Assembly: GCA_016124735.1 (NCBI GenBank)
Contig: WGMZ01000009.1
Location: 1-64,000 of the forward strand
Direction of reading: 5' to 3'
From: Bacteroidota bacterium
Lineage (GTDB): Bacteria > Bacteroidota > Bacteroidia > UBA8524
DNA length: 64,000 bases
Positions 42,463 to 52,292 of the stretch are shown piece after piece. Each line of letters opens with the position of its first letter. Within the stretch, counting starts at the first letter, position 1. Made by a program: the position numbers and the translations under genes. The notes under the pieces were generated by a model. The model was not told the origin of the DNA, ran no database searches, and saw only the letters and a program-made list of their open reading frames with translations.

Positions 42463-43175
42463 AAAACATAACCGATTCCCAGACTCAACTGGTAGATTCG
42501 AAAAGCCTGTTGAAACTGAATATAGGTCGTTTGATCAGGCTTCCCCGTTTGTTTGGTTACTTTTTCAACCTGGTTAAAAACCGGATTGGCCTGGTAATAA
42601 TCTGCATTGATTAAAGCCACCCAGCTCCATTTGAATTCATATTTAAAAGTCATCCCGGCTCCTATCGCAAAGGCAGAGGCCTTTTTCTCTTTGGTAACGA
42701 TGTTCAATACATCAGATCCATTCAGGCTGGTTCCTGAATAAGTAAGCTGCGGAGAAATAAAATTCAGAGCTCCCAAAGCAACACGAAAATCGAAGGCTGT
42801 TTTTTTAAAGTTTTGACTGAATTGGGGACCAAACATAAATCCAACCAGCGACCATGAATTGGCTTTTACAGCCCAGCTATAGGAATTAGGGCCGGAATTT
42901 AAAGCCTTTGAAAGTGCCGCTTCATTGACCGGGTTCACCGAAAAATTCATGGATACAAAGGCTCCAAACTGCTTATGGATTTTATGTCCCAACAAGGCAT
43001 GAAGCATCAAGCCATTGTTGGCAAAACCAGCCGCCGGATTGTTTGCATTAGTCGCCCCAAAATCGCCAGAACTGATACTGGTTCCGATACCCACATGTAA
43101 AAACCCTCCCACATCCTGCTGTGCATTGGCAGTAATCCCGACAAGAAGCAGTAACAGCAGGAGAACTTTTTTCAC
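42459..43175 (-). CDS. Outer-membrane beta-barrel protein
   Basis: A 238-aa exported protein. The signal peptide is at residues 1-18 (Leu-rich, ending in ANAQ). The mature part has alternating strands with Gly and aromatic residues (GGFLHVGIGTSISSGDFG; VALGALNFISPQL) and ends in GIGYVF, the C-terminal aromatic signal of outer-membrane barrels. The start is GTG, which overlaps the purA TGA (GTGA), so it is coupled to purA and co-transcribed with the spoT-fur-purA operon. A structural reason for this link is not known to me. Confidence 0.82.
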   Translation of the reverse strand: MKKVLLLLLLLVGITANAQQDVGGFLHVGIGTSISSGDFGATNANNPAAGFANNGLMLHALLGHKIHKQFGAFVSMNFSVNPVNEAALSKALNSGPNSYSWAVKANSWSLVGFMFGPQFSQNFKKTAFDFRVALGALNFISPQLTYSGTSLNGSDVLNIVTKEKKASAFAIGAGMTFKYEFKWSWVALINADYYQANPVFNQVEKVTKQTGKPDQTTYIQFQQAFRIYQLSLGIGYVF

Positions 43176-44440
43176 TTTTTCATTATGGTCTGTTCGCGGT
43201 CCGGACCCACGGAGATGACCCCAATAGGCACTTCACATTCCGCTTCCATAAAATCAATATACTGACGGAACGTTTCTGGCAATGCCTGATACTCGCGGAT
43301 CACAGAGATATCTTCCTGCCAGCCCGGAAAACTTTTGTATTCCGGAGTAAGGGTCGTTCCCTGCATATTGAAAGGACATTGTTCTTCATCTGAACATCCT
43401 TCATAAGCCAACGCTGCCTGAATCGTATCAATACCACTCAGCACATCTGCTTTCATCATAATTAATTCATCTACCCCACTCAACATAATGGCATATTTCA
43501 AAGCCGGCAGATCTAGCCAACCGGTTCTTCTGGGACGCCCTGTTGTTGCACCATATTCATGTCCCTTATCCCGCAGGAATTGACCCATATCATCGTTTAA
43601 CTCGGTTGGAAACGGACCACTTCCCACCCGGGTGCAATAGGCCTTGAATATTCCGGTCACCTTGTTGATGTATTTCGGGGCAAGCCCCAGTCCAACACAG
43701 GCACCGCCAGAAATGGTATTGGAGGATGTTACAAAAGGGTAAGAACCAAAATCAAGGTCGAGAAGAGAACCTTGCGCACCTTCTGCCAACACTTTTTTAC
43801 CCGCTTTTATTTGGCGATGAAGGAAAAATTCTGAATTCACCTGTTTGAAACCGCGCAGGTATTCCACCGCTTCAAACCATTCGGATTCCAAATTTTTCAG
43901 CGTCTCTTCATAATCAAATTGATAATACCGAAAGACGGAGATATGTTTTTCTAATGCTTTTTGATACAGTGCTTTGAATTCAGGCGAATCGGCATCACCG
44001 ACCCGCAGACCACTTCTTCCGGTTTTGTCCTGATAGGTAGGAGAAATACCCCGCAGAGTAGAACCAATTTTTTGTTCCCCTTTGGCATTTTCGCTTGCAG
44101 CATCTAATAAACGATGGCTTGGTAAAATCAAGTGGGCTTTTTTGGAGATATACAAACCTCCTCTCACATCCGCTCCTGCCGCAATGGTTTTTTCAATCTC
44201 GGCCCGGAGAAGTATTGGATCAATCACCACACCATTGCCGATCAGATTGATGCAGTTCTCATGAAAAATACCAGATGGAATAGTATTCAGCACGTGTTTC
44301 ATCCCATTAATTTCCAGCGAGTGCCCGGCATTCGGTCCTCCTTGAAATCTGGCTACCACATCGTAATTCGGTGTGAGAAAATCTGCGATTTTTCCTTTGC
44401 CTTCATCGCCCCATTGCAGGCCCAACAAAACGTCAACCAT
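43172..44440 (-). CDS. purA: Adenylosuccinate synthetase
   Basis: A 422-aa enzyme that makes adenylosuccinate from IMP, aspartate and GTP, the first committed step to AMP. The GTP-binding loop is GDEGKGK at residues 11-17, with the catalytic Asp12 and His40 in GPNAGHS. The IMP/Asp-binding segments include GRPRRTGW and YCTRVGSGPFPTEL. The gene lies 26 bp behind fur and overlaps the next gene by 4 bp. The order spoT-fur-purA is a conserved Bacteroidota neighbourhood, which joins purine supply with (p)ppGpp signalling. Confidence 0.97.
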   Translation of the reverse strand: MVDVLLGLQWGDEGKGKIADFLTPNYDVVARFQGGPNAGHSLEINGMKHVLNTIPSGIFHENCINLIGNGVVIDPILLRAEIEKTIAAGADVRGGLYISKKAHLILPSHRLLDAASENAKGEQKIGSTLRGISPTYQDKTGRSGLRVGDADSPEFKALYQKALEKHISVFRYYQFDYEETLKNLESEWFEAVEYLRGFKQVNSEFFLHRQIKAGKKVLAEGAQGSLLDLDFGSYPFVTSSNTISGGACVGLGLAPKYINKVTGIFKAYCTRVGSGPFPTELNDDMGQFLRDKGHEYGATTGRPRRTGWLDLPALKYAIMLSGVDELIMMKADVLSGIDTIQAALAYEGCSDEEQCPFNMQGTTLTPEYKSFPGWQEDISVIREYQALPETFRQYIDFMEAECEVPIGVISVGPDREQTIMKK

Positions 44441-44466
44441 TTCTTCTGTTATTATCCTTTGCGTTA

Positions 44467-44979
44467 TTACTCTTCTGTCTCTGTGATTTTCACCTCTTTT
44501 TTACAGGAAATACAGTGATTGGTTTCATCCAATATCGGGCTTCCGTAAAGGTTCAGGGAATGAGAGGTGACCTTAAATTTCAGGAGGTCCCCCATCATAT
44601 TTTGAATTTGCTGTATTCTGGGATCACAGAATTCCATCACCTTATTGCACATGTTGCAAATAAGATGATCGTGTTGTTTGTAGCCATACGACTTTTCAAA
44701 CAAGGCCATATTCTGTCCGAACTGGTGTTTGGTAACCAGATTACATTCCAATAATAAATCGAGCGTATTGTATACAGTAGCCCTGGAAACATGGTAGTTT
44801 CTGTTTTTCATCTGCAGGTACAGGGTATCCACATCGAAATGGCCTTCCTGGGTGTAGATTTCTTCCAGAATTGCATACCGTTCCGGTGTCTTTCTCTGCT
44901 TCTTCGTTTCCAGGTAATCGGTAAAAATTTTCCGAACCTGTTCGAGCATCTGCTTCTTGTTATTTGCCGTGTTGGGCAT
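44467..44979 (-). CDS. Fur-family transcriptional regulator
   Basis: A 170-aa metal-sensing repressor. The N-terminal winged helix reads [15 protein letters not shown] and [12 protein letters not shown]. The C-terminal dimer domain has the metal-binding HDH (103-105) and two CxxC pairs for structural zinc (C108/C111 and C156/C159). The family could be Fur or PerR; the residues do not settle it without comparison. It sits between spoT and purA in a conserved operon and may respond to iron or peroxide together with the EVIT and OsmC proteins encoded elsewhere in this window. Confidence 0.93.
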
Positions 44980-47325: not shown

Positions 47326-48036
47326 TTATTTCCGAAACAATTCCAAACCCCATTTAATATTAAAGTAAACCGCGGGTTTGATGTAATTAAAAGAATCCCA
47401 AATAAAATAATCCGTTACGCCATTGGAAGTATACCGTTGGATCTGCATGCTATGCTGATTCATTCCAAGACCAATATTAAATTCCCTGAATGGGCCAAAA
47501 ATATCCTGTGAGAAATACATGAGCGCCAATTCACTGACAAAAACATTGGCCATGTCTTTTCCATCCACCACCTGATCTTGTTTATAACGGTGTAAACGTT
47601 GATTCAAAAACAGGCTGATACCTCTTCCGTTAAGTAACCCATCGTATTCAAAAAACCATTTGAAGGAGGCGGTAAATCCGGCTCCTAACCGCGCATTCTT
47701 CCAACTCATAGGGTTTATCGTTGACTGGGGAACCACTTTTTGGTCATGCAATAATCCGTTTTGAAACCAATAGTCCCAACCAAAATCATAATAGGTGAGG
47801 CTTGGTCCAAATTCTATGGACCACTTTTTATTGTTCTGATATTCAGCTAAAAAAGTCAATTCTCCCCTCCCCAGTCGGAATATACTGGATTTCAATACCA
47901 TTCCCGTTCCCTCTTCTTTTTTAATAATTGACTTCCCGATAGGTTTTAGCCTGGAAACCGTGTCAACCTGCGCATTAAGCGAAAATGACAGGAGTACTGA
48001 ACTTAAAAACAAGTTATATATAAGTATGTGTTTCAC
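47326..48036 (-). CDS. Exported outer-membrane-like protein of unknown function
   Basis: A 236-aa protein with a signal peptide (about residues 1-22, ending in LNAQ). It has alternating aromatic strands (FLAEYQNNKKWSIEFGPSL; FTASFKWFFEY) and ends in FNIKWGLELFRK, which suggests a small beta barrel. The start is GTG at 48036, as no ATG precedes the signal peptide. It is divergent from the secreted protein/protease pair that starts at 48100, with 63 bp between, so a shared regulation is possible. No function is recognised. Confidence 0.68.
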   Translation of the reverse strand: MKHILIYNLFLSSVLLSFSLNAQVDTVSRLKPIGKSIIKKEEGTGMVLKSSIFRLGRGELTFLAEYQNNKKWSIEFGPSLTYYDFGWDYWFQNGLLHDQKVVPQSTINPMSWKNARLGAGFTASFKWFFEYDGLLNGRGISLFLNQRLHRYKQDQVVDGKDMANVFVSELALMYFSQDIFGPFREFNIGLGMNQHSMQIQRYTSNGVTDYFIWDSFNYIKPAVYFNIKWGLELFRK

Positions 48037-48099: not shown

Positions 48100-49656
48100 A
48101 TGAAACAATTATTTATTATTCTCTTGAGCTTTGCTCTTTTTACCGGAAATGTGAAAGGGCAGGCGACCGACATGCTTTGGGGACCAGACCTCAAACTCAA
48201 AGGAACCATGAACATTATCGGTGAGCAAAACGGTGGTGTGTTTGCTTTGCGATACTACAAATCCAATGTATTCCTTGAAAAATATGATGGAGAAGAAATG
48301 ACAAAAGACTTCTCATATCCACTGGAATTAAAAATCGAGGGTTCCCGAAAAAAGAACATGAGCATCGAAGGCACCTATTTCTTAAATGGAAATATCGTGC
48401 TCTTAGCCAGCTATTATGACAAACATGATGACAAAAATATTCTTAAAGCCACCATTTTTACTGAAGGTGGTGATTTGGTAAAAGACTGGGAAGTTATAGC
48501 CGCCTTTCATGCGGATAGTAAGAAAAACACAGGGGATTATATCGTCAGTTTTTCACCCGATAAAAAATCCGTTATGGTAGCGGCCAACCTGCCCTATGAA
48601 AAAAAGAAAAATGAACGCTACCAGATTTATATGTTCAACCAGAATCTGGAGAAACAATGGCAAAAGGAATTTGTGTTGCCTTATGCAGATAATCAGGTGA
48701 GTATATATAGCTATGTGGTTGATAATAACAGAGTGGCTCATATGTTGGCCTCGGTTGCTCCAGCAACCAGAAAAGAAAGGAAACAAGCTCGTAAAGCCAA
48801 AGAAGATGCGGACAAACAGTTGCTTGTAACCTACGATGGCGCAAACGACAAAACCTCAGAATACGAACTAAAACTTAAAAACAAAACCATCATGGCTGCT
48901 CGTCTGCGTTTAGACTCAGCAAACAATGTAATCATCGCTGGGTTTTATCACGACAATCTCAACAAAAAAGCTGCGCTTAGCGGAGTGTTTTATGCCCGTA
49001 TGCAACCCGGCGCCGATGAGCTAGATGTATTGAATACGAATGAATTCGATAAAAAATTTGTTGCTAAACTAATTGGTGATAAACGTGCGAAAAAAGGAAA
49101 AGAAATCAGCTCCGCATTTGTTCTGCGAAACCTTATTCCTACCAAAGACGGAGGACTTATTGCCATAGCTGAGGAGTATTATATTGTTGAGCACTGCAGC
49201 ACCAACCCTAAAACAGGAGTACAAACCTGTACCTACACCTATCATTTCAACGATATTATAGTGACTGGAATTAATAATCAGGGAGAAATTATCTGGTCCA
49301 ATGTAATCAAGAAAACATCTTATGACGGGGCAAATGGTTACTACTTATCTTATGGCGTACAGGTAACTGATTCAAAAGTGAATCTCATATTTCTAGACAA
49401 CAAAAAGAACTACAACGAATACGGAGAACGTATCGACGACAGCAAACTGAAAGGTGTGAATGTTAGAAAATCAGTAGCAACCTGTGCATCTGTTGGGTTG
49501 GATGGAGCTGTGGAATATTCAGTTCTGTACGATGTTCGCGCCACAAAAATTACAATGCGGCCAAGAATTTCTGTTCAGTTGAATAAAAATACCATGATCG
49601 CCTATGGCAGAGGCAAGAAACGAAGCGCGGTTCATTTAGGGAGAATAAGTTTCTAA
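48100..49656 (+). CDS. Large secreted protein of unknown function paired with a protease
   Basis: A 518-aa exported protein with a signal peptide at about residues 1-21 (ending in VKGQ). The rest looks like a repeated-blade beta structure, with segments such as YFLNGNIVLLASYYD, RLDSANNVIIAGFYHD and LIPTKDGGLIAIAEEYY spaced roughly as propeller blades. A basic stretch KERKQARKAKEDADKQ occurs near residue 226. A GVQTCTYTYHF segment has paired cysteines. I do not recognise the family. The gene is 13 bp upstream of a lipoprotein protease gene, so it may be that protease's partner or substrate. The A/T-rich codon use here looks different from the housekeeping genes to the right. Confidence 0.72.
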   Translation: MKQLFIILLSFALFTGNVKGQATDMLWGPDLKLKGTMNIIGEQNGGVFALRYYKSNVFLEKYDGEEMTKDFSYPLELKIEGSRKKNMSIEGTYFLNGNIVLLASYYDKHDDKNILKATIFTEGGDLVKDWEVIAAFHADSKKNTGDYIVSFSPDKKSVMVAANLPYEKKKNERYQIYMFNQNLEKQWQKEFVLPYADNQVSIYSYVVDNNRVAHMLASVAPATRKERKQARKAKEDADKQLLVTYDGANDKTSEYELKLKNKTIMAARLRLDSANNVIIAGFYHDNLNKKAALSGVFYARMQPGADELDVLNTNEFDKKFVAKLIGDKRAKKGKEISSAFVLRNLIPTKDGGLIAIAEEYYIVEHCSTNPKTGVQTCTYTYHFNDIIVTGINNQGEIIWSNVIKKTSYDGANGYYLSYGVQVTDSKVNLIFLDNKKNYNEYGERIDDSKLKGVNVRKSVATCASVGLDGAVEYSVLYDVRATKITMRPRISVQLNKNTMIAYGRGKKRSAVHLGRISF

Positions 49657-49669
49657 TCTTCTGTGAACC

Positions 49670-51280
49670 ATGAACAAAACACAGATAAAATTTAAATCCT
49701 ATTTGGTAACAGCACGTCTTTTCGGCTTGCTGTTATTCATTTCAGGTTGTGCCAGTATTTATATTCCCAAAAAGCAGAGCGTACACATTCATCACCCTTC
49801 TGATGATGCTGTTGTGGTACTGGATGGAGATACCATTGGATATGGAAACCATGTAAAAAAAAGGATTAAAAAGGAAGGTAGCCGTCAAATTACGGTAAAG
49901 GTGCCCGGCGAGAAGGAATCACAGCATGTGCTATTACCTACTCACCGCCCCGTTTTCTTTTGGCTTATGCAGCCGCTCAATATATCCTGTTTTTTTATTT
50001 ATGGTTACATGGTTGATTTCAGTTTAGAAAAAAATGTATCCTATAATCGGCATTACTATTTCCCATACAATTCCGAGGGGAAACAGCGCGATTCATTATT
50101 GCACAACTATGTTCGCTTAGAGAATGTTCAATTACTGAAATCCAAGGGCCCAAGTTCATTCCTTTCTGTTTTTGTAAAATATTCCAAGAACAAGGATATG
50201 CTTGAAAAGCGTAAAAATAAAGCAGAACAAAAGGCAATTCTGGCCGAAAAAGACCGCGATAAATACAGCCCGAATATGATTTACACAGGGCCATTTAATA
50301 TCCCGCACTTTGAAGAAAAAGTAGTGGGAAAAATGAATGAATTGCTTGATCAGTTTGGGTACTATAACCGCGAGGATTCAATCTTTTTTGATTCAAGAAA
50401 GTACACCTATTTATCATGCCGTATTGATGGGGGTGTCGTTTACCAAATATCTGGAAAGGCAAACAACCAATACGAAGAACTCAAATTGAACTGCACTTGG
50501 TTTGTAACAAATAAGTACGGGGAAAAAGTTGATAGCATTTCGATCACCTCGAAATCAGGACAGTTTATTTTTGGAAATCTTTCGCTGATGTACGATGCCT
50601 TAGGAGAAAATTTCATGCAATTGGTTCAAAATCCATTTTTCACCAAGTATATCCAGCATAAACCTCAAGCTTTACCCGAAGGCGAAAAAGTTCAACTGGG
50701 TAAAATCACAAAACCAATAACAAAGCAGGAGGATGTACCAAAGGCCTGCGTGGCTGTGCGAACGAGTCTGGGACACGGCAGTGGCTTCGCCATTTCTCAT
50801 GAAGGGCATATCATTACCAACTACCATGTTATTTCGGGAGATGTAATCGGGAATTATCCCAAGATTAAAATTGTGGATTATGAGGGATTGCAGTACGATG
50901 CGGAAATTATTTGCATTGATCGTGAAAATGATTTGGCATTATTAAAAACCGGGAAAAAATTTGAGTATTGTTTCGCTATCCCAGACAGTGTTGAAATAAA
51001 GCCATTGGAAAAAATTTACACCATTGGTTCGCCAATGAGTACCGAGTTAGCAAATTCTGTTTCCAAAGGACTTGTCTCCGGAACCAATTTGGCATCAAGT
51101 CAGGGATTGATTCAATTAAATATGGGAGTAAGCCCTGGAAACAGCGGAGGCCCTGTATTTAATGACAATTTGCAATTGAGAGGAATTGTGGTTTCCAGAA
51201 TGACCAATCAAGAGGTGGAGGAAATCTGCTTTGCCGTTCCGGCGAATAAAATCAAGCGGCTGTTGAGTAGTGCGGAATAA
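49670..51280 (+). CDS. Trypsin-like serine protease lipoprotein with PEGA-like domain
   Basis: A 536-aa predicted lipoprotein (lipobox ISGC, Cys27). A PEGA-like beta domain lies at about residues 36-90 (SDDAVVVLDGDTIGYG). An uncharacterised middle of about 250 residues, with a hydrophobic stretch at about 95-118, comes next. The C-terminal trypsin-like domain spans about 355-536. It has a complete triad: H386 (ITNYHVIS), D421 (RENDLALLK) and S492 (VSPGNSGGPVF). There is no PDZ domain, unlike DegP/HtrA. It is probably active in the periplasm or at the outer membrane. It is linked to the upstream secreted protein gene by 13 bp; a decayed insertion element begins 18 bp after its stop. Confidence 0.88.
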   Translation: MNKTQIKFKSYLVTARLFGLLLFISGCASIYIPKKQSVHIHHPSDDAVVVLDGDTIGYGNHVKKRIKKEGSRQITVKVPGEKESQHVLLPTHRPVFFWLMQPLNISCFFIYGYMVDFSLEKNVSYNRHYYFPYNSEGKQRDSLLHNYVRLENVQLLKSKGPSSFLSVFVKYSKNKDMLEKRKNKAEQKAILAEKDRDKYSPNMIYTGPFNIPHFEEKVVGKMNELLDQFGYYNREDSIFFDSRKYTYLSCRIDGGVVYQISGKANNQYEELKLNCTWFVTNKYGEKVDSISITSKSGQFIFGNLSLMYDALGENFMQLVQNPFFTKYIQHKPQALPEGEKVQLGKITKPITKQEDVPKACVAVRTSLGHGSGFAISHEGHIITNYHVISGDVIGNYPKIKIVDYEGLQYDAEIICIDRENDLALLKTGKKFEYCFAIPDSVEIKPLEKIYTIGSPMSTELANSVSKGLVSGTNLASSQGLIQLNMGVSPGNSGGPVFNDNLQLRGIVVSRMTNQEVEEICFAVPANKIKRLLSSAE

Positions 51281-51298
51281 CACACTATTAATTACATA

Positions 51299-52292
51299 AC
51301 TGTCCATTTAATTCCTACCACACGGTATTCTGGCGGAGCCAGAAGCTAACTTGCCTGTAAAATTACTGGAAATAACTCATTTAGAATTCTTTAAATGTTA
51401 CAGAACTGACGCTCAATGTAAGTCCCATTGGATTGAAATGCGCAAGAAACAAGGTGTTGTTTGCCAAAATTGCCAATGTCAGAAACATAATTAGATGCCA
51501 AAGAAGGAGCAGTTCCAATGTGCCGATTGTCGATTTCGTACCACATGAAGAATTAGCACAATACCAGATTCCAGTAAACTTTCATATCGGGATTGGTACA
51601 TGGCAATGGTTTTAATGACTTCAAGTAAGAACGGCATTTCTGCGCTTAATATGAAGCGACATTCAGGCGGAAATCGCTATGAGCCAGCTTGATTGATGAT
51701 GCATAAGATCAGAGACCTGATGCTTTTACGTGAGGAGCAATAACAATTGAAAGGTGAGATAGAAGTGGATGAAATATTTATTCGGCATGCCAGCTCATTG
51801 GAAGCAGAAGCAGTGCTTAAACGCGGTAAAGGAAACCAACGACGCGCTGTGGCCATCATCGCTGTTGAATTAAAAAAACGACAAGGACGGACCTAAGTGC
51901 GGAAAGCGTATAGGTTATGTTAAAGTTGAGCCGTTTTGAAAGTCACAGAGCGAAAGTGGCCAGGCGAGCAATTGAGAAAATGACGAATGTACTAAAGAAA
52001 ATCACCTCAGCTAAAGGACGGGAGTTTAGAGAGGTCCATAAAATAGCTAAACACAAACAAGTTCTATCTACTAATGAGAATGACGACTTGTATTTACCCT
52101 GAATAGACGTGGTAACCGCAAATGTTAAACGCATGTTATCAGGTACTTACCATTCATAAAAAAGAGAAAATCTTGCAGGGATCTGGCGAAAAACTGCTAT
52201 AGATTTAACAGGAAATGTTTTAGCCTTAATAACTTCGAAAGGCCAGTAAATATATGTGTTTTTCCTAGTTTAGTGGCAAACTAAAGGACAAT
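51299..52292. mobile_element. Relic of an IS1595-family insertion sequence
   Basis: About 990 bp holding a broken IS1595-like transposase. Candidate terminal inverted repeats, both proposals by eye, are ACTGTCCATTTAATT (51299-51313) and, in reverse complement, ATTGTCCTTTAGTT (52279-52292), alike with one gap. No clear 8-bp target duplication is left. The size fits the family. The element is inserted between the protease gene and tRNA-Leu. Confidence 0.7.
51351..52284 (+). pseudogene. Decayed IS1595-family transposase
   Basis: Read through stops, one frame gives the N-terminal zinc-ribbon pattern (CQNCQCQKHN, stop, then FQCADCRFRTT), the SYRDWYMAMVLMTSSKNGIS helix region and the first catalytic Asp in GEIEVDEIFI. 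A frameshift at the A run near 51870 leads to KDGPKCGKRIGYVKVEPF. A later piece reads CYRFNRKCFSLNNFERPV, close to the FNRR...FDRLL ending of IS1595 transposases. At least five in-frame stops and several shifts show it cannot work. It is old, as decay is spread over its whole length. Confidence 0.85.

Follow-up and report, generated by a model that had tools for sequence, protein, structure and literature searches.

Organization of the Locus

The genes described here lie in a 64,000-nucleotide stretch of contig WGMZ01000009.1 (the window). This contig is one of 53 that make up a 3.11 Mb Bacteroidota genome, whose closest named relative among the records seen is the MAG UBA8524 (L133, DQHT01000081; referred to as G003). 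Two open reading frames on the forward strand, PROP (48100-49656, 518 aa) and LIPTRYP (49670-51280, 536 aa), are separated by 13 bp, with boundaries and spacing exactly as given in the original prediction. The first encodes an exported eight-bladed β-propeller and the second a lipoprotein with a C-terminal trypsin-like protease domain. A third gene, BAR (47326-48036, reverse strand, 236 aa), which the first reading of the sequence had overlooked, belongs to the same cluster; it diverges from PROP across 63 bp and encodes an exported, predicted outer-membrane β-barrel of a DUF3575-like family. Genes resembling fur and purA are also found near this block in the window (43172-44979), and in a genome of another family (L126, 4536-8083) PROP adjoins fur-like and purA-like genes.

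PROP, an Unnamed β-Propeller Family

The AlphaFold2 model of PROP, computed from a 55-sequence alignment (mean pLDDT 92.4, pTM 0.88), contains approximately 32 strands that form eight four-stranded blades by our reading of its strand list, the final blade being closed by the N-terminal strand 24-27. This closed ring of four-stranded blades, together with Foldseek matches in the PDB that are overwhelmingly β-propellers (hundreds at E < 0.001, none of them close), accounts for the blade-like repeats noticed earlier in the sequence. Among the PDB matches listed, Dos1 had the top TM-score (0.46/0.57). A profile search of PDB sequences returned no significant match, PROP itself matched no Pfam or NCBIfam model, and 55 diverse family members gave no convincing match to Pfam. 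The fold is common, but the family is unnamed in the protein-family libraries used, even though a single-sequence search at E <= 1e-10 found relatives in 189 of 395 Bacteroidia genomes, about half.

Preceding the propeller is a signal peptide (residues ~1-21), and the protein is probably periplasmic, as suggested by this signal and by the lack of a sorting domain. Assignment as Type IX secretion system (T9SS) cargo was rejected, as neither Por_Secre_tail nor CHU_C was matched and the C-terminus is the last blade. The basic patch pointed out earlier could be traced to helix 224-232 of the model, inside RKERKQARKAKED; this helix is part of an insertion in blade 4 (residues ~219-241, the RKERKQARKAKEDADKQ region, 48754-48822, forward strand). 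The insertion is present in G003 and in G001, a genome of the same family and another genus, and is shorter or missing in others, including the paired relative L116.

More distant members of the family occupy a second conserved setting at five loci (L109, L111, L112, L113, and L131, one of them in the same genome as the window, on contig C47), where the PROP-family gene is followed by a gene of a single family, recognized by Pfam as DUF6427 in L109, and at three of the loci by an opposite-strand polA-like gene after that. Bacteroidia-like PROP genes are also carried by two records labelled Competibacteraceae (L198) and Thalassovita (L167), names that are probably wrong.

LIPTRYP, a Lipoprotein Protease without a PDZ Domain

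LIPTRYP represents a family conserved in Bacteroidota. Its N-terminus carries a lipobox (ISGC) with the cysteine C27 (49748-49750, forward strand, as for all features of this gene), which is invariant in an alignment of 16 relatives (family alignment A2). It is followed by a putative PEGA-like β domain at residues 35-88 (49772-49933), and then by a hydrophobic stretch (~89-117) and an uncharacterized middle region reaching residue 355 (together 49934-50734), for which Pfam offered no family match. An HtrA-like trypsin domain spans residues 360-533 (50747-51268). Its catalytic codons, His386 (50825-50827), Asp421 (50930-50932), and Ser492 within GNSGGP (51143-51145), are likewise invariant in the 16 relatives, in agreement with the intact triad first read from the sequence. 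As to the N-terminal PEGA-like fold of the original prediction, PEGA (PF08308) was found in 8 of the 16 relatives, in one of them above the Pfam cut-off, and β strands appear here in a low-confidence model, but PEGA was below detection in the LIPTRYP of the window. That AlphaFold2 model, built from four usable sequences, is poor (pLDDT 48.3) and is unreliable in the middle region.

Within the trypsin domain, PF13365 covers residues 370-506 (E 1.4e-22). The Pfam scan revealed no PDZ domain, as anticipated, and nothing follows the trypsin domain before the chain stops at residue 536. All NCBIfam models of the HtrA type score far below their cut-offs and match the protease domain only, so that no HtrA profile extends over the full protein; TIGR02037, for example, reaches 96 bits against a cut-off of 416, with E 1.8e-27 over residues 363-533. 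These results support the proposal that the architecture is not that of DegP. Two further genes in the same genome match LIPTRYP over the trypsin domain only, and LIPTRYP is therefore not the sole HtrA-like protease of the cell. Two other assignments were rejected: a defence system (PADLOC RT-Protease_XI), as the match is restricted to the protease part and a reverse transcriptase (RT) domain is lacking, and a phage origin, as the PHROG matches are essentially confined to the protease domain.

Acidic residues behind the lipobox cysteine act as a surface-export signal. No such signal follows Cys27, and together with the lipobox this would put LIPTRYP on the periplasmic side of the outer membrane. 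Elsewhere, two LIPTRYP genes that stand without PROP (L093, 6372-8510; L099, 1894-4998) adjoin large T9SS-sorted SprB/SBBP repeat proteins, and in one run (L097, 1815-8178) LIPTRYP genes stand in tandem, together with a small gene resembling BAR and another gene with a C-terminal trypsin domain.

BAR, the Steadier Partner of PROP

Clustering of the genes beside PROP revealed that its commonest neighbour is an exported protein of roughly 190-260 aa, and the window gene at 47326-48036 is a member of this family by profile-profile comparison (hhalign E 1.4e-17). In a profile search, the BAR family lay directly beside PROP in 24 of 124 unique loci, in 23 of them upstream and in 15 both upstream and divergent. 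BAR is thereby a steadier partner of PROP than LIPTRYP is, and it also stands alongside the nearest unpaired relatives of the PROP of the window (L134, L136, and L143). BAR is named for the barrel predicted from the matches of some members to DUF3575 (PF12099; 5 of 18, best E 3e-5, with no match to the BAR of the window) and, weakly, to OMP_b-brl. It would lie in the outer membrane.

Small exported genes recur around LIPTRYP as well. In the second lineage of PROP-LIPTRYP pairs they lie downstream of LIPTRYP, with that of L128 being BAR-like at E 1.4e-7 and the others weakly so. Next to some of the LIPTRYP genes that stand alone there are likewise small genes whose products look exported and end in a barrel-like C-terminus, judged by eye from N-termini and C-terminal signatures; Pfam recognizes none of these.

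Composition and History of the Block

PROP and LIPTRYP had been described as A/T-rich, bounded on the right by a dead insertion element, and possibly gained by transfer. The compositional bias is real but mild: genes of the window average a GC content of 0.436 (sd 0.022), and the pair, at 0.397 and 0.394, falls 1.7-1.9 sd short of this; BAR is equally low (0.388), and the same mild A/T-richness marks PROP in G003 and G001. The locus is intact in G001, reading spoT, PROP, lipoprotein, and tRNA-Leu-tig-clpP. Because the block occupies the same place in another genus, its recent transfer is unlikely; the trees of PROP and of the lipoprotein follow the same order. In G004, of the same genus as the window, spoT lies directly beside tRNA-Leu-tig and the block is absent, an empty site that is best read as a loss. 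Taken together, the synteny, the tree order, and the empty site led to the rejection of recent horizontal transfer, leaving that part of the original prediction unsupported for the recent past.

The insertion element itself is genuine. It lies to the right of the block and outside the module (51300-52260, forward strand), and is a decayed IS1595-type element with a transposase interrupted by stops and frameshifts, whose broken frames match PF12760 (E 8e-5) and PF12762 (E 3e-3). Further copies occur elsewhere in the genome, and the relic need not have carried the block. Its first ~132 bases (51300-51432) recur alone at 87-88% identity on contigs C14, C42, and C32, and may represent either a MITE or an IS terminus of a common type. 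In G003, also of the same genus, the only trigger-factor match is 30% identical (C57:96196-97524); contig C4 of that assembly ends just behind LIPTRYP, and the true tig may be absent from the assembly.

Recurrence of the PROP-LIPTRYP Pair

Full-length LIPTRYP, defined in the profile search of 395 genomes as a match that starts at about position 1-20, extends past 515, and scores at least 340 bits, was found in 21 genomes, and in five of these (G000, G003, G014, G349, and G315) it lies directly downstream of PROP. Viewed from the side of PROP, LIPTRYP adjoins 3 of the 80 nearest named loci (L133, which is G003, L163, and L184). The two genes are mostly apart in other genomes, which speaks against the dedicated pair originally envisaged. 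The same order and strand nevertheless recur in three family-level groups and in two MAGs from named records, with genes that overlap or are separated by short gaps and, at several loci, a third small exported gene. Paired LIPTRYPs occupy two separate places in the LIPTRYP tree, where the AU test rejects a single clade for them (p = 4.95e-5). A weaker separation of the paired members is seen in the PROP tree, which by itself does not reject one origin (AU p = 0.07). For four paired genomes, the branching orders of the PROP and lipoprotein trees are compatible, as expected under co-inheritance.

The arrangement has either arisen twice or is old and often broken up, and in our estimate both histories go beyond chance neighbours. 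The main rival holds that PROP and LIPTRYP are functionally independent envelope genes, brought together by chance or shared regulation and kept adjacent by vertical descent, and it draws its strength from the fact that each family mostly occurs without the other alongside and from vertical inheritance of the pair at one place in this lineage, which makes it a single observation there. Against this, the arrangement originated at least twice according to the LIPTRYP tree, the second pair clade has been retained over long branches, and chance would be expected to give ~0.01 same-order adjacencies among 21 genomes (our own rough estimate, assuming ~2 PROP genes per ~3000 genes). Independence is for these reasons considered unlikely, though it is the most serious competitor, and the non-random link between the two genes that the original prediction implied is upheld. 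Such a recurrent neighbourhood points tentatively to a common function at the cell surface.

A Relative That Lacks the Protease Half

The lipoprotein next to PROP in G001 is 316 aa long and breaks off at the expected start of the trypsin domain. No trypsin remnant was detected behind it in any forward frame, and the DNA leads directly into tRNA-Leu. Its N-terminal half groups with the LIPTRYPs of the window and of G003 (support 95/94), and since it is nested in a protease-bearing family, the protease half was most likely lost. G001 keeps PROP together with the N-terminal half without trypsin, so proteolysis need not be what ties the lipoprotein to PROP. This argues that the partner of PROP may be the anchored N-terminal half of the lipoprotein, rather than PROP being kept solely as a substrate. 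Of the two alternatives first put forward, a protease-substrate and a protease-regulator pair, the association as such is retained, but its substrate version is weakened by the protease-less lipoprotein beside PROP.

A Putative Envelope Module

The reading tentatively preferred here, possible though somewhat short of probable, is an envelope module in which BAR, PROP as a docking platform, and LIPTRYP form a three-part complex, and for which we infer the physical interaction, sub-cellular sites, proteolytic activity, targets, and mechanism. BAR and PROP would most likely be the older core, in which PROP, on the periplasmic side, provides a platform for docking next to the barrel. The non-protease half of LIPTRYP (PEGA and the middle region) would attach it to this core, and from its position on the inner side of the outer membrane the trypsin domain would cleave envelope or secreted proteins that the complex brings near. 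The propeller would thus fill the adaptor place held by PDZ domains in HtrA proteases. A bolder version is unlikely to hold in full. It posits a system of three parts for proteolysis at the outer membrane, assembled at least twice independently in Bacteroidota, where a separate eight-bladed propeller docked at the small barrel takes over from PDZ domains as adaptor to an HtrA-like protease with a lipid anchor.

Gene adjacency is unable to tell an adaptor from a substrate, and other roles for the protease have been weighed. In a signalling or stress unit, by analogy with the clipping of RseA by DegS, the PEGA/middle part would sense an envelope ligand, PROP would transmit the signal, and the trypsin domain would clip a regulator. 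A membrane-anchored HtrA-like domain whose sequence resembles DegS and AlgW would suit this role, but DegS is anchored in the inner membrane and gated by its PDZ domain, LIPTRYP is a lipoprotein without PDZ, and no anti-sigma gene was recognized among the neighbouring ORFs, making this scenario improbable. Least probable of all is a dedicated pair in which LIPTRYP matures or degrades PROP, for although the protease is adjacent, downstream, and intact in its triad, and the basic helix of PROP looks exposed in the model, G001 retains PROP with this helix in the absence of the protease domain, most PROP loci have no LIPTRYP alongside, and L116 is among the paired relatives in which the helix is reduced or lacking.

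Searches of the literature on PEGA and serine protease lipoproteins, on DUF3575, and on propellers with proteases found nothing on the PROP-LIPTRYP pair. The parts themselves belong to known kinds. Neither the propeller family nor the architecture is described in the libraries and papers that were searched. What is gained for this widespread and unnamed propeller family, present in about half of the sampled Bacteroidia, is a set of genomic partners that now suggest a testable role in the envelope, and LIPTRYP illustrates the use of an HtrA-like protease domain that has no PDZ and is tethered by a lipid anchor. Should the propeller prove to be the adaptor of LIPTRYP, it would represent a new way to steer envelope proteolysis.

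Comparison with Known Systems

PorZ, like PROP, is an exported Bacteroidota protein with β-propellers at the outer membrane, but it is a T9SS component, and the PDB sequence search showed no resemblance to PROP. Solved β-propellers such as WD40 proteins, PLL lectins, and the propeller of prolyl oligopeptidase share the fold, whereas PROP has eight blades and, among the listed matches, query-normalized TM-scores of at most 0.46 at ~10% identity. The small outer-membrane proteins of the DUF3575/OMP_b-brl type are matched by members of the BAR family, weakly in the case of OMP_b-brl, but the papers found tie them neither to a propeller nor to a protease, and the BAR of the window is too divergent to match. 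With the PEGA lipoproteins (PF08308), the LIPTRYP family has in common the lipobox and, in 8 of 16 relatives, a PEGA match behind it; in LIPTRYP itself the PEGA-like part lies below detection and is fused to the middle region and the protease.

The closest parallel to the protease is the HtrA family (HtrA, DegP, DegQ, and DegS; MEROPS S1C, TIGR02037), with which LIPTRYP shares the trypsin-fold domain, the same motifs, and the triad, and which includes its PDB relatives MucD, HTRA1, and DegS. Measured against S1C, LIPTRYP has the trypsin fold and the triad and lacks the C-terminal PDZ domain(s) and full-length scores above the cut-offs. It also differs from that family in that the protease domain comes last in the chain, after a lipid anchor and PEGA-like and unknown domains.
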